Of a DNA stretch of 64,000 nucleotides, positions 49,025-59,055 are shown piece by piece. This DNA comes from Peterkaempfera bronchialis (GTDB taxonomy: Bacteria > Actinomycetota > Actinomycetes > Streptomycetales > Streptomycetaceae): the NCBI RefSeq assembly GCF_003258605.2, contig NZ_CP031264.1:2542001-2606000 (forward strand), read 5' to 3'. How positions within the stretch are numbered: the first letter of the stretch is position 1; the number at the start of each line of letters is the position of its first letter. Both the position numbers and the translations under genes were made by a program. The notes beneath the pieces were generated by a model. It had not been told where the DNA came from, did not search any database, and saw nothing but the letters and a program-made list of their open reading frames with translations.

Positions 49025-49067
49025 GCCATGAGTCTAGAAACCCCCGGGCCCGGCCCGGACACGCTGC

Positions 49068-49120
49068 GGCTTGCCCGGCTTGCCCGGCTTGCCCGGCTTG
49101 CCCGGCCGGCCCGGCCGGCC
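49068..49120. repeat. Four tandem GGCTTGCCC units plus a GGCC run
   Basis: Exact 9-bp units from 49068 to 49103, then degenerate GGCCGGCCC copies to 49120. The array fills the spacer between the CNNM gene and the next stop codon. Confidence 0.88.
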
Positions 49121-49122
49121 GG

Positions 49123-49818
49123 TCAGTGCAGCACGGTGCCGAACGGGTCGTCCGGCAGGTCGGGGGCGCCGGGGCTCGGGACGGGCGGGGCGGCGGGCTG
49201 GTCAGGGGCCGGTTGCGGTCCCTCGGGGAAGCGGATCGAGCGGACGACCTGGACCAGGAGCGGGGCGAAAACGTCCTGCCAGTGGTCGAGGTCCGGGGTG
49301 CTCAGCTCCACGATCAGGACGCCCTCGTTCCCGGGCGGCATCGGCAGATAGGCCTTGGCGGAGAGGATCGGGACGGTCTCGTCGGCGGAGAGCCGCCAGC
49401 CGGGAAGCTGCCCGACCGTGATCACCACCGGCCCGGCGGGTGCGTCGAAGCGGCGGATCACCCCGGTGGGCCGTCCGTCCTCCGCCGGGGCGGGCGCCAG
49501 GACCTCCAGCAGACCGGCCGCCGCGGTCTCCTGCGGGGCAGGTCCGGTCTCCAGCTCGGTGACCGTGAGGGTCGCCATCGAGCGCCGGTCGCCGAGGGTG
49601 CCCACCCAGCTGCCCGACCAGACCGCGCCTGCCTCGGTCAGCGCTGCGGACGCCTGGGCGTACAGCTCGACCAGGTCGCGCCGCCGGTCGGCCGGGAGCC
49701 CGGCTGCGGCGGCCCCTATCCGCTCCAGGACGGCTTCATGGGCGTGCTCCAGGTCGTCGGCGATCTGGAACGGGACGAAGTTCGGCGGTACCTCGAACTC
49801 CACGGTGCCGCTGCTCAC
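49123..49818 (-). CDS. Unrecognised protein of a WXG/ESX-like cassette
   Basis: 231 residues, GTG start. The protein is soluble and acidic, with no signal peptide or membrane segment. The middle part, AVWSGSWVGTLGDRRSMATL, PVVITVGQLPGWRLSAD and VPILSAKAYLPMPPGNEGVL, looks like a folded beta-rich domain; a Pro-rich tail follows. It is last in the run behind the WXG genes. It may be a chaperone, immunity or regulatory protein; nothing in the sequence decides. Confidence 0.65.
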   Translation of the reverse strand: MSSGTVEFEVPPNFVPFQIADDLEHAHEAVLERIGAAAAGLPADRRRDLVELYAQASAALTEAGAVWSGSWVGTLGDRRSMATLTVTELETGPAPQETAAAGLLEVLAPAPAEDGRPTGVIRRFDAPAGPVVITVGQLPGWRLSADETVPILSAKAYLPMPPGNEGVLIVELSTPDLDHWQDVFAPLLVQVVRSIRFPEGPQPAPDQPAAPPVPSPGAPDLPDDPFGTVLH

Positions 49819-49918
49819 GGCGGTTCCTCCCGGTCGGGATGGGCGGGTGCGGTCGCGCGCGTCTCTCTCGCCGGCGCGGGCGGCGTCAGCAGGGCATCAG
49901 CAGGGCATCAGCCGGACG

Positions 49919-50512
49919 TCAGCCGGGCTTCCGGCCCACCCGGCGCGCACGGGCGGAGAGCCACGCGCCGGTCAGGCAGGCGGCGACCAGCAGCAGGACG
50001 ACCAGGTCGGCCGGGGAGAGGCCGCCGCCGGGAGTCGCGCCCTTGCCCACCCCGAGGTGGGCCAGGACCCGGAAGACCACCAGACCGGCCGCGATCACCA
50101 GCAGCCCGCGCGGCGGCACCCGTTCGTACCACCTGGACACCGGGAGCTGCGGCATCTGCTCCACCGGTGGGGGCGTCGGCCCCCAGCCGGGCGGCCACCC
50201 CGGCGGCGTCCACAGCAGCGGCCACTGCCCCGGCTGGGCCTGCTGCCACGGCACCGGGGCGGGCACCCCCGGTCGCAGGTCGGGGCGGCGCATCCAGGCA
50301 GCCCGCGCCTGCGCCTCCGGGGACGGGTCGAGACGCAGGCGGATCCACGAGCCGGAGCGGGAGAAGATGTCATCCGTCCCATAGCTCTCCAGCCGGTAGC
50401 CGTAGAGGTACGCGACCCACAGTTCGTACGGCATGTCCCGGCGGAAGGTCAGGCAGGGGTAGGTGTACTCGGGGCGTCCATCGAGGTGGGCCGCCAGCCG
50501 CGAGGCATCCAT
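49919..50512 (-). CDS. Membrane protein of the WXG cassette
   Basis: 197 residues from the ATG at 50512, 7 bp after the upstream gene. The N-terminal 75 residues are soluble (DMPYELWVAYLYGYRLESYG); a Pro/Trp-rich linker follows (about 85-130); two membrane segments close the protein (LLVIAAGLVVFRVLAHLGV and DLVVLLLVAACLTGAWL). No family recognised. It could be an immunity or anchoring partner of the 400-residue WXG protein. Confidence 0.65.
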   Translation of the reverse strand: MDASRLAAHLDGRPEYTYPCLTFRRDMPYELWVAYLYGYRLESYGTDDIFSRSGSWIRLRLDPSPEAQARAAWMRRPDLRPGVPAPVPWQQAQPGQWPLLWTPPGWPPGWGPTPPPVEQMPQLPVSRWYERVPPRGLLVIAAGLVVFRVLAHLGVGKGATPGGGLSPADLVVLLLVAACLTGAWLSARARRVGRKPG

Positions 50513-50519
50513 ATCCGGT

Positions 50520-51722
50520 TCAGTTGCCCTTCCCCGCCGCGGCCTTGTCCTTCTCCGAGCCGTCCTGCCAGGCGTTCTCCAGGCCGACCAGCAGCGGCCC
50601 GCCGGGCAGCATGACCTCGCCCCACTGGCGGTTGTCGCGCGGGACGAACTGCTTGACGCCGGAGGCGTCGCCGAGCCAGCCGATGACCGAGTAGCCGGTG
50701 CCCCACTTCCCGGCGTCGTCGCCGAACTTGGTGGCCTTGGCGACCTTGGCCGCATCCGTGCCGAGCTTGCCCGCCTTGCCGAGCGCCCCGAGCACCGGCA
50801 GCGTGCCCATCACATCCACGGCGAAGCTGGACAACGGGACGTCGGCACCGGCGAGCGCCGCGACGCTGTGCACGCCCAGCGCCGCCCCGGAGAGCCCGAT
50901 GGAGACCCCGTCCAGCACCGCCGCCGCCGGTTCCAACCCGACGGCCGCGCACCCGAGGGCCACCAACCCGACCAGCGTGCTGGCGTTGCTGAGCAGGTCG
51001 CCCACGGCGGCAATCGCATTGGCGTGGGCCTTCGCCCAGGCCATGGCGTCCTTGGCCAGCTGGATATGGGCGGCGGCTATCTTCTTGACGCTGTCCAGCA
51101 GATTGGCGAACCAGCCCGGCCCGTCCGGAGCCTGGTCCCCCGCCTTGGCGACCGCCTGGGCGGCCTGCTGGGCCAGTTGGTCATGGTCGGCCCGCAGCGC
51201 CTCCGCCCGCGCGATGATCGCCTGGAGGTCGGCATCGGCCACATGCAGATCGGCCTGCGCCTTGCGGAACCGGGCCTCGGCATCGGGCAACTGGTCGTCC
51301 GGCAGCCAGACCCCGGCCAGCTTCAGGTCGGGGTTGTCGGCGGCCTGGTCGCGACGCGCCTTCGCCGCCTTGGCCTGGGCCTCCTGGTCCGCCGCCTGCT
51401 GCTGCATGGTCGCCAACCGGTCGTGCCAGTCGGCCATGGTCCTGCGCGCGGACTCGAACGAGGCGTGGGCGACGTCGAGTTGCCCGGGCAGCTTGGCGAT
51501 CCGGGCGGAGAACGCGTCCGCCGCCTCGCCCTGCCACGCCTGCCCGTTGTTCGACGCCCGCCGTACGCTGTCGCAGGCGTCCTGCAACTCCTTGGCGGCC
51601 TGCTGGAGGTCGCCCACCAGCGCCTGGATACCGGGCAGACTGCCCGGGGAGGGGTCGAACCCGATCGCGTCGAAGCCCTCCCGGTCCAGCGGCGCGGCCC
51701 AGTCACCGAAGCCGATGGACAT
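50520..51722 (-). CDS. WXG-domain protein, putative ESX/T7SS substrate
   Basis: 400 residues from the ATG at 51722 (TGATG overlap with the upstream gene); a GTG at 51725 is possible. The N-terminal helical hairpin has a W-x-G turn in NGQAWQGEAADAFSARI (about 60-75), then long Ala/Gln/Asp coiled coils (about 90-200) and a hydrophobic Ala/Gly segment (about 230-300). This is the build of long WXG/LXG-type secreted proteins. The C-terminal 80 residues show no known toxin motif. Confidence 0.65.
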   Translation of the reverse strand: MSIGFGDWAAPLDREGFDAIGFDPSPGSLPGIQALVGDLQQAAKELQDACDSVRRASNNGQAWQGEAADAFSARIAKLPGQLDVAHASFESARRTMADWHDRLATMQQQAADQEAQAKAAKARRDQAADNPDLKLAGVWLPDDQLPDAEARFRKAQADLHVADADLQAIIARAEALRADHDQLAQQAAQAVAKAGDQAPDGPGWFANLLDSVKKIAAAHIQLAKDAMAWAKAHANAIAAVGDLLSNASTLVGLVALGCAAVGLEPAAAVLDGVSIGLSGAALGVHSVAALAGADVPLSSFAVDVMGTLPVLGALGKAGKLGTDAAKVAKATKFGDDAGKWGTGYSVIGWLGDASGVKQFVPRDNRQWGEVMLPGGPLLVGLENAWQDGSEKDKAAAGKGN

Positions 51723-52018
51723 CACGCCACCTGCCCGGTCATCGTCCGGCGGATCGCCTCGTCGCTCTCCCGGTACGCCTTGACGGTGACGTCCAGGCCC
51801 TCGTTGATCGCATGCAGCGTCTCATTGAGCTGCTTCAGCCCGTACTTCCAGTTGTCCGCGAAGCCGGCACAGGCCATGTCCAGCATCCGATGCCCCGTCA
51901 CCTGCGGCGACGTACTGTCCAGCGCATGCATCGCGCCGCCCATGCTGCCGGTCGCCTCGCGCAACTCCTTGGACACCTGCGCCAACTCGTCGGCCTCGAC
52001 CCGGAATCCGTCTGCCAT
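51722..52018 (-). CDS. WXG100/EspC-like small helical protein
   Basis: 98 residues from the ATG at 52018, with GGGGGAG just upstream. It is a two-helix protein without signal peptide: FRVEADELAQVSKELREATG, a central NWKYGLKQLNETL and a helical tail, as in the WXG100/EspC-type partners of type VII secretion. It overlaps the 400-residue WXG protein gene and may form a heterodimer with it. No EccC-type ATPase gene is in the window. Confidence 0.7.
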   Translation of the reverse strand: MADGFRVEADELAQVSKELREATGSMGGAMHALDSTSPQVTGHRMLDMACAGFADNWKYGLKQLNETLHAINEGLDVTVKAYRESDEAIRRTMTGQVA

Positions 52019-52388
52019 CGACTCCCCCATCGGTGAACGGTCCGGCCAGCCTAGCCAGCCCCCGGGCCCGCCGCACAGCCGGGGAGATCAAACCGGTCGG
52101 AGGTGGTGAACCCCCACTGGAACGGCTGCGCCGTGGTGTCGCAGCGGTCTGCGAAGAGCATCAGACCGCATCCCGCCGTACCGGGTCCGGCAGATCCCCG
52201 ACTGTCGGGTGATCAGCCCGGAGGGGCAGGCGTGCCCGCTGTACGAGGGGCACCCGGGCCGTTGCCCGTTCGAGAGCGCCAACCCGCACGCGACCCCCGG
52301 CACCACTCATTGACTCCGGTCCGGGTCGCGGCTGCCCTGACACGTCGCCACCCGGACCGGCTACACCCCCGAAGGGAAGGGGAGTCCC
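52019..52388. other. Divergent spacer with a possible 34-residue frame
   Basis: 370 bp between the WXG cassette and the SAHH-like gene. A + strand frame from the GTG at 52209 to 52313 encodes a Cys-containing peptide (ISPEGQACPLYEGHPGRCPF) that looks protein-like. The open frame extends back only to 52110 without a standard start. It may be a gene stump. No terminator or operator was recognised. Confidence 0.3.
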
Positions 52389-53516
52389 TTGGAACCGTCC
52401 GACAGAGCCCGACTCAACACCTACTGGTCGCGCATCGCTGCCGACTTCGCCCCCGAGCCGGCTGCCCGCCCGTCCTCGCTGCTCATCACGCACCTGTTGC
52501 CCGAGCGGCCCGCATTCGTCCGCGCCGTGGGGGCCGTCTCCGACCTGCGCGCCGTACTGCCCAAGCCGAAGTCGATCAACGACAACGCGCGGCGCGAAGT
52601 GGAACAGGCGTTCAACGTAGACGAGTTGACGCGTGAGCTGTTCACAGATCCGGATGTGGCGTTGGCCTACATGGAGAGCCGGGCACCCGGCGAACGGATC
52701 GTGCTGCTCGACGTGGGCGGGTACTTCGCGCCCGTGCTGGAGGACCTGTGCGTGCGGTACTCCGGCACGATCCTGGGCGTGGTCGAAGACACGGAGAACG
52801 GCCACAAGCGCTACGCCGAGCGGGACAAGCTGCCGTGCCCCGTGGTCTCGGTCGCTCGTTCTCCGCTCAAAGACCCGGAAGACTTCCTGGTCGGTCAGAG
52901 CGTGGTGTTCTCCGCCGAGGCGCTGTTGCGTGAGCGCGGGGACATCCTGCACGGCCGTTCCGCGCTCGTGATCGGCTTCGGCAAGCTCGGGTCCAGCATC
53001 GCCCGTCTGATGCACGCGAAGGGGGTTCACGTCACGGTGTACGACATCGACCCCGTACGGCGTGCACAGGCGCTCTCGCAGGGCTTCGGGGTCGCCCGGG
53101 ACCGGGATGCGGCCATACACGCCGCCGGGCTCGTCCTGTGCGCCACGGGGGCTCTGTCCCTGCGGGGTGAGGACTTCCCCACGCTGCGAAACGGCGCGTA
53201 CGTCGCCACGGTCACCAGCTCGGAAGATGAGTTGGAACTGGCCGGCCTCCCGGAGGGGTACCGGCGTTCCAGCTTCGGCGACCACGTGACCCGGTACGAG
53301 ACGAGCGGTCACTACTTCTACTTGCTCAACGGCGGGGAAGCGGTCAACTTCCTGCACGGGGCAAGCGTCGGACCGTTCATCTTCCTTGTACAGGGCGAGA
53401 TCATCGCGGCGACGCGAGCGATAGCCCGGGGCGAACTGTCGCCCGGGATGCACGAAGTCCCCGCCGCCGACCGAAGTGCCATCGCGGCGCAGTGGCTCAA
53501 CTACTGGAACAGGTAA
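52389..53516 (+). CDS. S-adenosylhomocysteinase-like Rossmann protein
   Basis: 375 residues, TTG start after GGAAGGGGAG. Alignable SAHH landmarks: LLDVGGYFAPVLE (SAHH DDGGD region), GVVEDTENGHKRYAE (SAHH EET.G..R), Lys161 and Asp165 in SPLKDPEDF at the catalytic Lys/Asp spacing, NAD-binding ALVIGFGKLGSSIA and VYDIDPVRRAQAL. It is about 55-100 residues shorter than true SAHH, lacks the C-terminal Lys-Tyr tail and has a divergent substrate domain. So it is probably an NAD-dependent enzyme on a related thioether or nucleoside. It is coupled to the NUDIX gene 5 bp downstream. Confidence 0.75.
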   Translation: MEPSDRARLNTYWSRIAADFAPEPAARPSSLLITHLLPERPAFVRAVGAVSDLRAVLPKPKSINDNARREVEQAFNVDELTRELFTDPDVALAYMESRAPGERIVLLDVGGYFAPVLEDLCVRYSGTILGVVEDTENGHKRYAERDKLPCPVVSVARSPLKDPEDFLVGQSVVFSAEALLRERGDILHGRSALVIGFGKLGSSIARLMHAKGVHVTVYDIDPVRRAQALSQGFGVARDRDAAIHAAGLVLCATGALSLRGEDFPTLRNGAYVATVTSSEDELELAGLPEGYRRSSFGDHVTRYETSGHYFYLLNGGEAVNFLHGASVGPFIFLVQGEIIAATRAIARGELSPGMHEVPAADRSAIAAQWLNYWNR

Positions 53517-53521
53517 GGCAC

Positions 53522-54058
53522 ATGGCAATGTCACCCGAACACATCCGGACCGTCCTGACGGGCTACGCGGACGAGCACCCCGAGGACAAGGACAGCCTTG
53601 CCCCGGTGTTCGCCGCGCTGGACCGGGACGACGACCCGACCAGCCGCAGCACGTCCCCGCTGCACGTCACCGCCGGGGCCGTGCTCGTCAACGACGCCGG
53701 GAACGTGCTGCTCATCCACCACAACGCAACCGGCAAGTGGCTTACCCCCGGCGGGCACCTGGAGCTTGAAGACGCCGAACTCATGCGCGCCGCGCTGCGG
53801 GAACTCGCCGAAGAAACCGGCGTGGACGGCGGGTTCCTCCCCATCCTGGAGATGCCCGTTCACGTGGACGTGCACGACATCCCCGAGAACCCCGCGAAGG
53901 GGGAGCCCGCCCACCAGCACGCGGACTTCCGGTTCGTCTTCCGCACGGTCCGTGAGGTGAACCCCCGGATTCAGGAAGAGGAGGTTTCCGCCGCCGAGTG
54001 GCGACCGCTGGACGATCTCCCGAAGACGCTGCACAAGCGCGTTGCCGCGCTGGTGTAG
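53522..54058 (+). CDS. NUDIX hydrolase
   Basis: 178 residues from the ATG at 53522. The NUDIX box is at about 77-101: GGHLELEDAELM, then RELAEETGV, with Glu97 and Glu98 as metal ligands. Asp replaces the first box Glu, with one extra residue, a variant shared by many actinobacterial NUDIX proteins. It hydrolyses some nucleoside diphosphate derivative. It forms a two-gene unit with the SAHH-like gene. A pSAM2 Pif-like role is considered because a GntR remnant lies next to it, but cannot be shown. Confidence 0.82.
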   Translation: MAMSPEHIRTVLTGYADEHPEDKDSLAPVFAALDRDDDPTSRSTSPLHVTAGAVLVNDAGNVLLIHHNATGKWLTPGGHLELEDAELMRAALRELAEETGVDGGFLPILEMPVHVDVHDIPENPAKGEPAHQHADFRFVFRTVREVNPRIQEEEVSAAEWRPLDDLPKTLHKRVAALV

Positions 54059-54202
54059 CACCCCGAAGCCCCACGCGTCCGGACGGAACTTGCTCCGTTC
54101 CGCCCGGGCGGGTGGTCGCCGGACCCGGTTGTGACAGACGGGGACGGCAACCCGGCTCTCGTCTTCCGGGGTGCGGTCCCCCTCCGCACCTTCGTGACCC
54201 GC

Positions 54203-54252
54203 GAGAGCCCCGCTAGGCGGTCCCTCCCCCGAGGCTGCCGCGCGGGGCTCTC
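54203..54252 (+). terminator. Possible long-loop hairpin after the NUDIX gene
   Basis: GAGAGCCCCGC (54203-54213) pairs exactly with GCGGGGCTCTC (54242-54252) across a 28-base loop. Confidence 0.5.
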
Positions 54253-54373
54253 ATGCGTCCGGGGCGTCGTCCTGGCGCTCGTCCTCGCCCGCCGGCTCGG
54301 CGACGTAGGTACCGCGTTGAGGCACCGTGAAGACCAACCCCGCCGCGACCAGCTCGGCCAACGACGAAGTCCA
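54251..54373 (-). pseudogene. GntR-type HTH C-terminal remnant
   Basis: About 40 codons (SLAELVAAGLVFTVPQRG, TYVAEPAGED, stop at 54251) match the end of a GntR winged helix, where the wing is usually GLV...PQRGTFVA. Upstream no frame supplies the HTH. Short GntR (KorSA-like) regulators are typical of actinomycete integrative elements. The stump lies on the opposite strand to the NUDIX gene. Confidence 0.5.
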
Positions 54374-54451
54374 GGACGCAGGGCAACGAGGAAACGTGCT
54401 TGCCGCCGTCGCACCAGCCCGAGGTTTTCCAGGGCCGGGGCGACGGCCACG

Positions 54452-54667
54452 TCAGCAGGTCGCGGTGATCTCCCCCGCCTTCACGGCGGAGACGAACGAC
54501 TCCCAGGCGGCGGCCGGGAAGATGAGGGCCGGACCGAGCGGGTCCTTACTGTCCCGGACGGGGACGACGCCGGTGAATCCGGGGGCCACCTCGATGCACT
54601 CGCCGCCGTTGGTCCCGCTGTGGCTGCTCTTGCGCCACACTGCCACTCGGAGCTCCTGCTGCGTCAT
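54452..54667 (-). CDS. DUF397-family protein
   Basis: 71 residues, ATG at 54667 with GGGAAGG upstream. The DUF397 marks are complete: WRKSSHSGTNGGECIEVA, VPVRDSKDPLGPAL and FPAAAWESFVSAVKAGE. These small proteins almost always follow an XRE/DUF5753 regulator in streptomycetes, as here, and act as partners in developmental or antibiotic control. Confidence 0.92.
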   Translation of the reverse strand: MTQQELRVAVWRKSSHSGTNGGECIEVAPGFTGVVPVRDSKDPLGPALIFPAAAWESFVSAVKAGEITATC

Positions 54668-55502
54668 GGTCGTAACCTTCCCTTGCGCTGGTGATGAAAG
54701 CGACCGTTTCGCGAGGCGAGAGTGCCCCCGCCCGGAGCAGGTCGTAGGTTCGTGCATAGTCGGCGATGACTTCCGGGTTATCGACGAAATGGCCCCTGTC
54801 GAGGCTCTCCGAGTAGACCCAGTCATGCCCGTCGGGGAGGGTGAGCAGTGTCATAGAGGCATCTGGGCGCCTCAGATCGTACCGATCGAACGGCGCGACC
54901 TGGAGTACGACATTAGGGCGTTGCGCAAGAGTCAGCAGGTGGTCAAGCTGGCCGCGCATCACCTCCGGATTACCGACGTGGCAGCGGATTGCGCTCTCAT
55001 CGAGCACGACGATCAGAAGCGGTGCCCCGCCAGTGAGGAAGCGCCGCTGTCGACTCATGCGGGCAGCCACCAGCTCATCGATGCGCGCCTCGTCCCACTC
55101 CGAGAGTCCTCCGCAGAACATCGCCCGCGCGTAGTCCTCGGTCTGCAACAGCCCCGATATGCGGGCAAGTTGGAACTGCCGGACCGCAACGGCCTGCGCC
55201 TCCATGTCCGCGTACCGCTGGAACCAGTCCGGGTGCTCGATCTCGGCGTACCAGTCCACCTGGGACCAGATCCGCTTGATCCGGCCGCTGGTGTTCAGCG
55301 CCCTGTCGCAGCCCTCCACGAAGTGCCTCTGCGGGACGCGTTCGCCCGCCTCGATGCGGCAGACCAGCGAACGGTCCACGTGGAGCAGATTGGCCAGATC
55401 TCCCTGCGAGTAGGACATGGCCTCGCGGGCATGGCGCAGTTCCGCTCCGAAGAGTATGGCCGGGCTATTGGTCGATCCGGGCGCGCTCCGCTGTTTGGCC
55501 AT
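54546..55502 (-). CDS. XRE-family regulator with DUF5753 domain
   Basis: 318 residues, ATG at 55502. HTH about 17-70 (FGAELRHAREAMSYSQGDLA, HVDRSLVCRIEAGERVP); DUF5753-like ligand domain about 90-275 (WFQRYADMEAQAVAVRQFQ, LQTEDYARAM). The last 40 residues are read in another frame through the DUF397 gene, a 122-bp overlap. Relatives usually stop near the DUF397 start, so the natural stop seems lost. Confidence 0.88.
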   Translation of the reverse strand: MAKQRSAPGSTNSPAILFGAELRHAREAMSYSQGDLANLLHVDRSLVCRIEAGERVPQRHFVEGCDRALNTSGRIKRIWSQVDWYAEIEHPDWFQRYADMEAQAVAVRQFQLARISGLLQTEDYARAMFCGGLSEWDEARIDELVAARMSRQRRFLTGGAPLLIVVLDESAIRCHVGNPEVMRGQLDHLLTLAQRPNVVLQVAPFDRYDLRRPDASMTLLTLPDGHDWVYSESLDRGHFVDNPEVIADYARTYDLLRAGALSPRETVAFITSAREGYDHDAAGAPSGSVAQEQPQRDQRRRVHRGGPRIHRRRPRPGQ

Positions 55503-55630
55503 GGCGTATCCCCCCTGGTGACACTGCGTGGTGGCAATGACTGATTGCTCGTCACTCTACTGAGGATCCCCGATGCTTGGTGGCAGAACGAAGCAACTTC
55601 ATTGCTCAGCGTAGCCAGGGGGTCCGCTCC

Positions 55631-56065
55631 ATGTCCGAGCCGCAAGTCACAATCACGCCGAAGGGCGAGGCCGAGTGGTGGTTCACCCGGCATCCGGCGT
55701 CGGTGCGGTCGGCGCGGCGGATGCTGCGGTACTTCCTGGCGGTCTGGGATGCCCCCGAGTACCTGGACTCGGGGCAGCTGGTGCTGAGCGAACTGGTCAC
55801 CAATGCGGTGCAGCATGCCCGGGTGTCGCCGGGCCGGGAGATCTGCACGCGGTTCGAGATCCGGCCGGAGTTCCTGCGGATCGAGGTGTCGGACGCCGAC
55901 CTCCACCACCTGCCCCGGCGGCGCGAGGCCGGGGAGGCGGAGGAGTCGGGCCGGGGGCTGGCGGTGCTGGACGCGCTGGCGGACGAGTGGGGCTGTGAGC
56001 CGCGCGACTGCGGAGTCGGCAAGACCGTGTGGGCGGTGCTCGGCCGACCCGGTCCCGCAGGGTGA
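55631..56065 (+). CDS. RsbW-like ATP-binding regulatory protein
   Basis: 144 residues from the ATG at 55631 with a GGGGG site upstream; a GTG at 55577 is possible. The single HATPase domain has the N box LVLSELVTNAVQHARVSPG, G1 IEVSDADLHH and G2 ESGRGLAVLDALADEWG. Such stand-alone kinase domains act as anti-sigma or serine-kinase partners in streptomycete stress and development control, and often accompany XRE/DUF397 pairs as here. Confidence 0.87.
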   Translation: MSEPQVTITPKGEAEWWFTRHPASVRSARRMLRYFLAVWDAPEYLDSGQLVLSELVTNAVQHARVSPGREICTRFEIRPEFLRIEVSDADLHHLPRRREAGEAEESGRGLAVLDALADEWGCEPRDCGVGKTVWAVLGRPGPAG

Positions 56066-56121
56066 CGTGACGTGCCCCCGCCGGGACGGCGGTCTCCGGC
56101 GGGGGCACCTGACGGCGGGGC

Positions 56122-57402
56122 TCAGCCGAGGGGCAGGCCCGGGGCCGGGTAGGCGTCCATGAGGGCCTTCACCTCGGCGCGGACCTTGGTGACGGTCTCC
56201 TCGTCGCCGGTACGGGCAGCGGTGACGACGCGGTCGATCCATTCGGCGACGGCGGCCATCTCCGACTCGGGGATGCCCCGGGAGGTGAGGGACGGGGTGC
56301 CGATGCGGATGCCGGAGGGGTCGAAGGGCTTGCGGGGGTCGTAGGGCACGGTGTTGTAGTTGACGACGATGCCCGCCCGGTCCAGGGCCTTGGCGGCGAC
56401 CTTGCCGGGCACGTCGCGGCCGGTGAGGTCGATCAGCAGCAGGTGGTTGTCGGTACCGCCGGACACCAGGTCGAAGCCTCGGGCGGCCAACTGCTCGCCG
56501 AGGGCGCGGGCGTTGGCGACGACCTGGTGGGCGTACCCGCCGAACTCCGGGGTGGCGGCCTCACGGAGGGCGACCGCGATGGCGGCGGTGGTCTGGTTGT
56601 GGGGACCGCCCTGGAGGCCGGGGAAGACGGCCCGGTCGATGGCCCGGGCGTGCTCCTCGCGGCACATCAGCATGGCGCCGCGCGGGCCGCGCAGGGTCTT
56701 GTGGGTGGTGGTGGAGACCACGTCCGCGTGCGGCACCGGGGAGGGGTGGGCGCCGCCCGCGACCAGGCCGGCGATGTGGGCGATGTCGGCCACCAGAACG
56801 GCGCCGACCTCGCGGGCGATCTCGGCGAACCCGGCGAAGTCGATCACCCGGGGCACGGCGGTGCCGCCGCAGAAGATCAGCTTGGGCCGCTCGGCCAGGG
56901 CCAGGTCGCGGACCTCGTCCAGGTCGACCCGGCCGGTGTCGCGGCGCACGCCGTACCCCACGCCCCGGAACCAGGTGCCGGTGGCGGAGACGCCCCACCC
57001 GTGGGTGAGGTGGCCGCCCATGGGCAGCGACATGCCGAGCACGGTGTCGCCGGGCTTGAGGAACGCCAGGTAGACGGCGAGGTTGGCGGGCGAGCCGGAG
57101 TAGGGCTGGACATTGGCGTGGTCCACGCCGAAGAGGGCCCTGGCGCGGTCGGCGGCGATGGCCTCGACCTGGTCGATGTTCTGCTGGCCCTCGTAGTAGC
57201 GCTTGCCGGGGTAGCCCTCGGAGTACTTGTTCTGGAGGACGGTTCCGGAGGCCTCAAGCACGGCCTGCGAGACGTAGTTCTCGCTGGGGATCAGGCGCAG
57301 GGTGTCGGCCTGGAGCTGCTCCTCGGCGGCGACCAGCGAGGCGATCTCGGGGTCGGCGGCGGCAAGGGCGGGGTGGCGGTCGGTACGGTCGGGTGCGCTC
57401 AT
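56122..57402 (-). CDS. glyA: Serine hydroxymethyltransferase
   Basis: 426 residues, ATG at 57402 with GGGAGG six bases upstream. It interconverts serine and glycine with THF one-carbon transfer. Motifs: SENYVSQAVLEASGTVLQNK, YSEGYPGKRYYEGQQ and the PLP-lysine region VVSTTTHKTLRGPRG. It is preceded by a ZTP riboswitch. Confidence 0.95.
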   Translation of the reverse strand: MSAPDRTDRHPALAAADPEIASLVAAEEQLQADTLRLIPSENYVSQAVLEASGTVLQNKYSEGYPGKRYYEGQQNIDQVEAIAADRARALFGVDHANVQPYSGSPANLAVYLAFLKPGDTVLGMSLPMGGHLTHGWGVSATGTWFRGVGYGVRRDTGRVDLDEVRDLALAERPKLIFCGGTAVPRVIDFAGFAEIAREVGAVLVADIAHIAGLVAGGAHPSPVPHADVVSTTTHKTLRGPRGAMLMCREEHARAIDRAVFPGLQGGPHNQTTAAIAVALREAATPEFGGYAHQVVANARALGEQLAARGFDLVSGGTDNHLLLIDLTGRDVPGKVAAKALDRAGIVVNYNTVPYDPRKPFDPSGIRIGTPSLTSRGIPESEMAAVAEWIDRVVTAARTGDEETVTKVRAEVKALMDAYPAPGLPLG

Positions 57403-57411
57403 CGCGGTCCT

Positions 57412-57446
57412 CCCGGGTCGGTCGTTCAAACGACATGTGACCCGGG
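57412..57446 (-). promoter_or_regulatory. SD-sequestering stem (riboswitch expression platform)
   Basis: CCCGGGTC (57412-57419) pairs perfectly with GACCCGGG (57439-57446), with a further GTCGTT/AACGAC hairpin inside (57421-57434). On the glyA mRNA this stem covers part of the GGGAGG ribosome site (57409-57414) and competes with the 3' end of the aptamer, suggesting translational control. Confidence 0.65.
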
Positions 57447-57552
57447 TGCCCAGGCGGACGGCACTCCGGCGGTGGTGCGTCCCCGGGCATGCCCGGGGTG
57501 GTGCCGCTTCCTCGTGGTCGCTTCCACGCAGCTCGCCAGTCGCGGCACGGCT
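57441..57552 (-). ncRNA. ZTP (pfl) riboswitch upstream of glyA
   Basis: On the - strand the leader has GCCGCGACTGGCGAGC, then GTGGAAGCGACCACGAGG, and ends with CCGTCCGCCTGGGCA. These match the two conserved parts of the pfl RNA (ACTGGCG and GACCACG...; CCGNCTGGGC). The ligand is ZMP/ZTP, an alarmone of low folate, and glyA is one of the known target genes. A GC hairpin (GCCCCGGGCATGCCCGGGG-like) joins the two parts. Confidence 0.88.
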
Positions 57553-57649
57553 CACTCTACCGTCCGGGGTGGGGAAGCACCGGTCAATAAGGGGCGGGGG
57601 GATGCGGCGCGGCGGGGGGGTGGAGTCGGACAAGAGAGGCCGGGGCGCG

Positions 57650-57760
57650 GGGCGGGATGCGACGGACGGAACGGGGGCCGAAGGGCTGGGATGCGACCGG
57701 GGGGCCGGGGGCGAGGGCTGGGATGCGACCGGTGGGGCGGGCTGGGCCGGGTGGGGACGG
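57650..57760. repeat. Imperfect 32-34 bp repeats before rocD
   Basis: GGGCTGGGATGCGACCGG occurs at 57683-57700 and 57715-57732, 32 bp apart, with a weaker copy of GGGATGCGACGG at 57654. The whole 57590-57830 stretch is G-rich and non-coding. Confidence 0.8.
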
Positions 57761-57834
57761 GAGAACCGGCCTTCGCCGGGGAAGGACGAGGGCAGGCAGA
57801 CCGGTCAATGGCGACCCCCCGGAGATGAACCCTC

Positions 57835-59055
57835 ATGAGCCAGCAGCGCCCCCTCACCGACACCCTCATCGCGACCGCCGACTCCCACAGCGCCCACAAC
57901 TACCACCCCCTGCCGGTGGTGATAGCCGAGGCCGAGGGCGCCTGGATGACGGATGTGGAGGGCCGCCGCTATCTGGACCTGCTGGCGGGCTACTCGGCGC
58001 TCAACTTCGGCCATCGGCACCCCCGGCTGGTCGCCGCCGCCAAGGCCCAGCTGGACCGGGTCACCCTGACCTCCCGGGCGTTCCACCACGACCGGTTCGC
58101 CGCCTTCTGCACAGAGCTGGCCGAGCTGTGCGGGATGGAGGCGGTGCTGCCGATGAACACCGGCGCGGAGGCGGTGGAGACGGCGGTGAAGACGGCCCGG
58201 CTGTGGGGCTACCGGGTGAAGGGGGTGCCGGCGGACGAGGCGCGGATCGTGGTGGCGGCGGGCAACTTCCACGGCCGTACGACGACGATCGTGAGCTTCT
58301 CGACCGACCCGGAGGCCAGGGAGGGGTTCGGCCCGTACACGCCGGGGTTCGACATCGTGCCGTACGGGGACCGGGCGGCCCTGGAGGCTGCCGTGGACGA
58401 CCGTACGGTGGCGGTGCTGCTGGAGCCGATCCAGGGCGAGGCCGGGGTGCTGGTGCCGCCGCCCGGCTATCTGGCCGCCGCCCGGGAGATCACCGCGCGG
58501 CGCGGGGCGCTGCTGATCGCGGACGAGGTCCAGTCGGGGTTGGGGCGCACCGGCCGGACCTTCGCCTGCGAGCACGAGGGCGTGGTGCCGGACATGTATG
58601 TGCTGGGCAAGGCGCTGGGCGGCGGCATCCTGCCGGTGTCGGCGGTGGTCTCCTCGCGGGCGGTGCTGGAGGTCTTCACGCCGGGCAGCCATGGGTCCAC
58701 GTTCGGCGGCAACCCGCTGGCCTGCGCGGTCGCGCTGGAGGTGGTGGCGATGCTGCGGACCGGCGAGTACCAGCAGCGGTCCGCCGAGCTGGGCGCGTAT
58801 CTGCACGGCGAGCTGGCGGAGCTGGCCGCGACCGGCGCCGTACGGGAGGTGCGGGGGCGCGGGCTCTGGGCGGGGGTGGATGTGGACCCGGCATTCGGCT
58901 CGGGGCGGCGGCTGTCGGCGCTGCTGATGGAGCGGGGGGTGCTGGTGAAGGACACCCATGGGTCGACGATCCGGATCGCCCCGCCGCTGGTGATCGCCAA
59001 GGAGGACCTGGCGTGGGCGCTTCAGCAGCTGCGGGAGGTGCTGGCCGCCGGTTAG
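57835..59055 (+). CDS. rocD: Ornithine aminotransferase
   Basis: 406 residues, ATG with GGAG upstream. Class III aminotransferase marks: AGYSALNFGHRHPRLVAA, NTGAEAVETAVKTAR, LIADEVQSGLGRTGR and PLP-Lys in YVLGKALGGGI. It turns ornithine and 2-oxoglutarate into glutamate semialdehyde and glutamate. Its stop overlaps the convergent neighbour by 4 bp. Confidence 0.92.
   Translation: MSQQRPLTDTLIATADSHSAHNYHPLPVVIAEAEGAWMTDVEGRRYLDLLAGYSALNFGHRHPRLVAAAKAQLDRVTLTSRAFHHDRFAAFCTELAELCGMEAVLPMNTGAEAVETAVKTARLWGYRVKGVPADEARIVVAAGNFHGRTTTIVSFSTDPEAREGFGPYTPGFDIVPYGDRAALEAAVDDRTVAVLLEPIQGEAGVLVPPPGYLAAAREITARRGALLIADEVQSGLGRTGRTFACEHEGVVPDMYVLGKALGGGILPVSAVVSSRAVLEVFTPGSHGSTFGGNPLACAVALEVVAMLRTGEYQQRSAELGAYLHGELAELAATGAVREVRGRGLWAGVDVDPAFGSGRRLSALLMERGVLVKDTHGSTIRIAPPLVIAKEDLAWALQQLREVLAAG

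Follow-up and report, generated by a model that had tools for sequence, protein, structure and literature searches.

A mobile two-gene cassette of an SAHH-fold enzyme and a NUDIX hydrolase in Streptomycetaceae

Gene layout of the locus

We analysed a window of 64,000 nucleotides from the complete, 7.09 Mb genome of Peterkaempfera bronchialis, in which an SAHH-like gene (henceforth SAHHL) is directly followed by a gene for a NUDIX hydrolase (Table 1). An initial annotation of this DNA, made from the sequence alone, had described these genes as a two-gene cassette with a 5-bp spacer. Both open reading frames were recovered, with Pfam matches to AdoHcyase_NAD (E = 1.8e-13) and NUDIX (E = 1.2e-19), and the spacer is exact: the TAA codon of SAHHL (53514-53516) is followed by GGCAC and then by the ATG of the NUDIX gene at 53522. 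SAHHL begins with a TTG codon, which matches the conserved start position of its relatives and gives a protein of 375 aa. The mechanically called NUDIX reading frame begins earlier (GTG at 53492); because its relatives begin at the position of 53522, we took the latter as the start. A ribosome-binding-like AAGG motif overlaps the SAHHL stop codon, which suggests that translation of the two genes may be coupled. A short, cysteine-containing reading frame upstream (approximately 52160-52309) was considered as a third gene of the cassette and rejected, being conserved in no relative locus.

Table 1 Features of the cassette and its surroundings (coordinates are positions in the window).
Feature	Coordinates	Strand	Basis
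Probable SAHHL ribosome-binding site, GAAGGGAAGGGGA	52371-52383	+	Putative; read off the sequence
SAHHL, predicted SAHH-fold NAD-dependent enzyme	52389-53516	+	ORF; PF00670 (E = 1.8e-13); AF2 model (pLDDT 90.5); Foldseek and VIA-align matches to SAHH
5-bp spacer between SAHHL and NUDIX	53517-53521	+	Sequence; spacer of 4-20 nt in 63/64 paired loci
NUDIX hydrolase, 178 aa, helical N-terminal extension of ~45 aa	53522-54058	+	PF00293 (E = 1.2e-19); invariant Nudix-box residues; AF2 model (pLDDT 93.4); nearest structure 3fcm
Accessory stretch with the cassette	49053-57864		blastn against congeners G001 and G002 (L108, L109)

The accessory stretch that holds the cassette is missing from one of the two congeners compared by blastn (G002), where the genes matching 47.7-49.05 kb and 57.87 kb are only ~200 bp apart; the other congener (G001) has positions 54470-57478 of this stretch without the cassette. 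SAHHL (0.86) and NUDIX (0.87) have a lower third-position G+C content than most neighbouring genes (0.89-0.97), which fits a foreign origin. Two adjoining genes that resemble those of WXG100-type secreted proteins (50520-52030, reverse strand) belong to the same variable stretch. The DUF397-like, XRE-DUF5753 and HATPase genes at 54452-56065 form a common Streptomyces regulatory trio, which is found in G001 too, where the cassette is not.

The SAHH-like protein is distinct from canonical SAHH

The SAHHL protein matched PF00670 with 51.3 bits (cut-off of 27) and scored far below the cut-offs of the NCBIfam SAHH equivalogs (72.8 vs. 275 bits and 68.9 vs. 497.6 bits). A separate, canonical SAHH is encoded in the same genome, and in the tree this protein grouped with eight other canonical SAHHs on one side of a branch with 100/100 support. 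SAHHL was found on the other side, as were its actinobacterial, proteobacterial and firmicute relatives (those in other phyla being 28-40% identical to it), in a tree that is midpoint-rooted and in which several long branches leave the deep order unsure. Two actinobacterial proteins considered as members of the family (L083 and L084) were discarded, as they fell outside it in the tree. The initial annotation had suspected that the protein is not a true SAHH and had named its position in a tree as a test of this; the placement outside the canonical clade, the low equivalog scores and the presence of a canonical SAHH in the genome all bear out that suspicion.

The structural comparison indicated a complete fold. 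SAHH was the best Foldseek match (E = 7.5e-19) to the AlphaFold model of SAHHL (AF2; pLDDT 90.5), the other fold matches in the top lists being to NAD domains or generic, and VIA-align matched residues 1-375 of the model to SAHH structures (352-364 residues aligned, 3.4-4.4 Å rmsd, Z of 31-36). As the aligned region covers residues 1-375, the substrate domain is present, and the earlier view that much of it had been lost has to be corrected: active-site residues have changed, not the domain. The C-terminal tail is missing, as had been observed, with the model stopping at around residue 403-405 of SAHHs of ~425-432 residues (the alignment ends near SAHH residue 404). In SAHH this tail completes the NAD site of the neighbouring subunit.

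The SAHH Lys/Asp pair and NAD motif recognised in the initial annotation are indeed retained. Specifically, profile alignments equated SAHHL K161, D165 and H35, which are invariant in the family, with human SAHH K186, D190 and H55, whereas other positions are replaced: V109 stands for D131, A156 for N181, S277 for H301 and V327/G328 for H353 (human numbering throughout). The SAHHL family has also acquired new invariant residues, all of them charged (K59, E136, R157 and E164), which would fit a different, possibly anionic substrate. Given the pattern of kept and replaced residues, the hydride-transfer machinery looks preserved, and the parts that serve SAHH in adenine binding and in the loss or addition of the 5' group appear to have been rebuilt.

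One reading of these data is that SAHHL is an ordinary or degenerate paralogue of the methyl-cycle SAHH that has a NUDIX gene as a fortuitous neighbour. It does share with SAHH (AhcY) the whole fold, the NAD domain and equivalents of H55, K186, D190 and N346. However, the two are only 17-24% identical, the equivalents of D131, N181, H301 and H353 are replaced, the C-terminal tail is absent, and SAHHL belongs to a separate clade with a NUDIX partner that looks obligate in streptomycetes. This reading is already contradicted by the strongly supported position outside canonical SAHH, the canonical SAHH in the same genome, the altered pocket and the conserved NUDIX pairing, and we regard it as hardly credible; the automatic label 'adenosylhomocysteinase' is wrong for SAHHL proteins.

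SAHHL and NUDIX form an evolving unit

The NUDIX protein matched PF00293 with 71.1 bits (cut-off of 21.1) and was modelled with a pLDDT of 93.4 (AF2). Its Nudix box is complete, with R93, E94, E97 and E98 invariant in 24 aligned relatives and a one-residue loop insertion relative to the Paraburkholderia protein. The best match in both structure and sequence was 3fcm, an uncharacterised NUDIX hydrolase from Clostridium perfringens that shares the N-terminal extension of helices but has only ~22% identity to the cassette protein; fold, sequence and family membership leave the substrate unfixed.

We compared 68 streptomycete loci, which hold 60 different SAHHL sequences (the two genome collections had seven duplicate locus pairs, and neighbourhood genes were called with a simple G+C-based script). 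A NUDIX gene lies directly downstream of SAHHL in 64 of them, and in 63 of these pairs the gap is 4-20 nt long. At one locus (L028) the NUDIX gene is reduced to a fragment. Of the four exceptions, L017 stops at a contig end, L023 has a decayed NUDIX gene, and L055 and L081 carry a CMP-KDO-type cytidylyltransferase in its place. The adjacency is therefore well beyond chance, which answers the question, raised in the initial annotation, of whether the two genes are rarely adjacent elsewhere. Distances between SAHHL proteins and between their NUDIX partners were also correlated (Mantel r = 0.76 for 43 intact pairs, with 0 of 2000 permutations as high), part of which is explained by shared descent.

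The association spans phyla, since in Paraburkholderia sp. NMBU_R16 (Burkholderiales) the genes are still adjacent, in reversed order and with an HD phosphohydrolase added (NUDIX-SAHHL-HD). SAHHL and NUDIX are an evolving unit with a one-sided dependence: this NUDIX subfamily is also found without SAHHL (e.g., on Streptomyces plasmids, where it forms the first domain of triple-NUDIX proteins). When NUDIX was looked for near the relatives of SAHHL in Aeromonas and Rhizobium, none was detected. Two Frankia loci (L040 and L041) are remnants, with the last part of SAHHL only, followed by a NUDIX gene whose product aligns over its full length.

The cassette travels on mobile elements

A scan of named genomes yielded 36 SAHHL loci. 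Within Streptomycetaceae, SAHHL was present in 46 out of 298 genomes and in 9 out of 17 genera, several copies being truncated. Almost no further members were found in 396 Actinobacteria and 398 Proteobacteria genomes sampled outside this family of bacteria, and judging by these samples SAHHL looks rare outside Streptomycetaceae.

Five loci (L015, L016, L035, L101 and L102) have the cassette close to genes for a phage tail, an endolysin or an integrase. In L015 and L101 a tail fibre gene is followed in turn by those for an endolysin and an XRE regulator, by two small genes and by SAHHL and NUDIX, beyond which L101, like L035, runs on to an integrase. Three IMG/VR contigs carry a cassette of the streptomycete type and one carries the Lactiplantibacillus type (see below); a search of viral contigs with the Lactiplantibacillus protein as query found nothing new. 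The 149 neighbouring proteins include XRE and GntR regulators, transposases, HNH endonucleases and capsid proteins. The SAHHL-NUDIX pair travels on prophages, plasmids and islands, and the phyletic pattern, which the initial annotation had suggested examining for mobile islands, is patchy (46/298) with a seat in mobile elements.

Such a setting could point to a prophage-borne system of anti-phage defence or superinfection exclusion, which would make or destroy a nucleotide signal or a modified nucleotide. The position between endolysin and integrase is a frequent site of cargo genes in prophages; XRE-type regulators are found near the cassette, which itself occurs on IMG/VR contigs, and a divergent relative lies close to CBASS genes on an Agrobacterium plasmid. 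However, PADLOC models fit neither protein (NUDIX had no match, and SAHHL had weak NAD-motif matches to E1-E2 models, at E = 0.003 or worse), and the neighbours are not rich in PADLOC families, with 3 out of 149 proteins matching at E ≤ 1e-10 (a raw count, taken without a background sample), which gives little ground for a defence-island origin. Relatives are moreover found in biosynthetic clusters, and the cassette comes without an effector-like protein. We thus consider this scenario to be unlikely, and treat the role in self-immunity or defence suggested at first as conjecture.

The regulators could also be taken to mean that the cassette makes a small nucleoside-type signal under the control of its XRE neighbours. 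Roughly every second streptomycete locus has XRE-type regulators (clusters 1 and 4) upstream, and an SAHH-like enzyme takes part in making angustmycin, a compound with cytokinin activity (PMC8599513). Nevertheless, the regulators vary among loci, none lies directly upstream in the window copy, and XRE-type regulators are abundant in Streptomyces, making a signalling role quite unlikely.

Relatives in nucleoside-type gene settings

On plasmids of Lactiplantibacillus and Pediococcus, SAHHL is preceded by genes for an MFS transporter of the EmrB type and an HD phosphohydrolase that resembles YedJ. The Lactiplantibacillus copies, which are distant relatives, form a stand-alone arrangement with no biosynthetic genes. 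Soil bacteria encounter nucleoside and nucleotide antibiotics, and SAHHL together with NUDIX (or HD) might inactivate such a toxic compound, with MFS efflux added in Firmicutes. The isolated MFS-HD-SAHHL operon of the Lactiplantibacillus plasmids, the EmrB/DHA2 drug-efflux type of its transporter and the patchy carriage on plasmids and prophages are all consistent with detoxification or resistance. By contrast, SAHHL lies among biosynthetic genes in L034 and L114-L115, and no transporter is directly beside the Streptomyces pair; this explanation therefore seems rather doubtful.

Six Streptomyces loci (L034, L114, L115 and L120-L122) have SAHHL with carbamoyltransferase, methyltransferase and kinase genes, most of them adding a thymidylate-synthase-like gene and a CMP-KDO-type cytidylyltransferase. 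SAHHL, NUDIX and this setting occur all together in L034 and L120. The six loci also contain a P-loop kinase and phosphotransferase-like kinases, and NUDIX is present in some copies only. Most SAHHL-NUDIX pairs, including the window copy, lie outside recognisable biosynthetic clusters.

SAHHL was also seen among nucleoside-type genes on the Staphylococcus epidermidis plasmid pHD40-5_1 (L112:7348-16500; also L047 and L048). The run consists of genes for a LOG-type phosphoribohydrolase, a GmrSD/ParB-like protein, an HpaB-like oxygenase, NUDIX, a peptidase-like and an SbnA-like protein, and continues with a phosphoribosyltransferase, an HD hydrolase, SAHHL and MFS transporters. From its gene content this looks like an undescribed nucleoside-type biosynthetic cluster; a literature search on whether it might be a 6-N-hydroxyaminopurine or 6-thioguanine locus found no match to the gene set. 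SAHHL may serve as a marker for nucleoside-type gene clusters, the staphylococcal one included.

Two characterised enzymes provide precedents. AgmF, from the angustmycin pathway of Streptomyces, is a SAH-hydrolase homologue that rejects SAH and acts as an NAD-dependent nucleoside dehydratase, and its mutants H56A, D129A, K184A, D188A and H299A are all inactive (PMC8599513). Besides AgmF, the pathway comprises a phosphoallulosyltransferase, a LOG-like phosphoribohydrolase and a phosphatase (PMC8599513), and the Staphylococcus cluster has the same kinds of function (LOG-type phosphoribohydrolase, phosphoribosyltransferase and HD hydrolase). When AgmF was mapped through SAHH, H56, K184 and D188 corresponded to H35, K161 and D165 of SAHHL, whereas the essential D129 and H299 corresponded to V109 and S277. 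The AgmF reaction itself is thus unlikely for SAHHL, and because two AgmF-essential residues are absent we do not claim membership of the AgmF family; the likeness is one of functional analogy. TubG, a Nudix hydrolase, converts AMP to adenosine in the last step of the tubercidin pathway (PMC6112128). By its description it is a comparable, small Nudix protein, with a nucleoside monophosphate as substrate and an MFS transporter in the same pathway (PMC6112128); the cassette NUDIX has the helical N-terminal extension seen in 3fcm.

A tentative function for the cassette

We tentatively propose, with a probability of roughly 45%, that these two genes serve as a mobile accessory module acting on a nucleotide-like metabolite from outside housekeeping metabolism: NUDIX would trim off phosphate, SAHHL would carry out NAD-dependent chemistry on the sugar, and SAH would probably not be the substrate. 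This builds directly on the conserved pairing, the co-variation, the SAHH fold, the kept K161, D165 and H35, the changed pocket residues and the mobility. The HD gene beside the Paraburkholderia pair and the plasmid-borne HD and MFS efflux genes next to SAHHL in Lactiplantibacillus and Staphylococcus speak for it too. Counting against it are the many pairs outside biosynthetic clusters, the missing counterparts of AgmF D129 and H299, and the Aeromonas and Rhizobium relatives. In a first step, a nucleotide or nucleotide-sugar would be cleaved by NUDIX, with release of phosphate or pyrophosphate. SAHHL, with its bound NAD+, would then oxidise a sugar hydroxyl in the manner of SAHH, carry out a reaction at the adjacent carbon (elimination, epimerisation or hydration), and re-reduce the product. 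It is the nucleoside or nucleotide nature of the substrate, the order of the steps and the redox-neutral chemistry that we infer here. The initial annotation had thought of a modified nucleoside or thioether metabolite; the nucleoside part of its proposal, widened to modified nucleosides or nucleotides, is plausible by analogy with AgmF and TubG and from the relatives in nucleoside-type clusters. The outcome may be tailoring, detoxification, signalling or defence.

A more far-reaching version would have an undescribed mobile module that Streptomyces prophages bear as a lysogenic-conversion or defence trait: its SAHH-fold enzyme, with the active site rebuilt, and a dedicated NUDIX would jointly synthesise or break down a non-canonical nucleotide. 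We hold this version to be rather doubtful. Under the more general reading, i.e., an accessory module for a nucleotide-like metabolite, the cassette would offer a compact handle on the nucleotide chemistry of prophages and plasmids. SAHH is usually seen as a one-reaction family, and SAHHL adds to it a widespread mobile branch with a conserved hydrolase partner and probably another substrate.

Further gene settings

Some further loci were noted in other surroundings. In L116 and L117, a divergent SAHHL lies beside GT8/GT2 glycosyltransferases and kinase-like genes, possibly a biosynthetic setting. On the Agrobacterium plasmid pAtl-11c (L111:1-25535), a divergent SAHHL is found near an integrase, with genes for a DncV-like nucleotidyltransferase, a patatin phospholipase and toxin-antitoxin systems. 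A link of this plasmid match to agrocin 84 was considered and dropped, as the annotation shows a CBASS-bearing region and a literature search found no connecting paper. The triple-NUDIX proteins of Streptomyces plasmids (L123-L125) are accompanied by HIT, phosphotransferase, MFS, aminoacyl-tRNA-ligase-like and TauD genes, in an arrangement that resembles a nucleotide antibiotic cluster. Finally, L113, L118 and L052 contain a separate SAHH-like group; in L113 the SAHH-like gene is followed by genes for a methyltransferase, a 652-aa phosphoribosyltransferase and a HAD protein, and adjoins TIGR02679/TIGR02680 genes.
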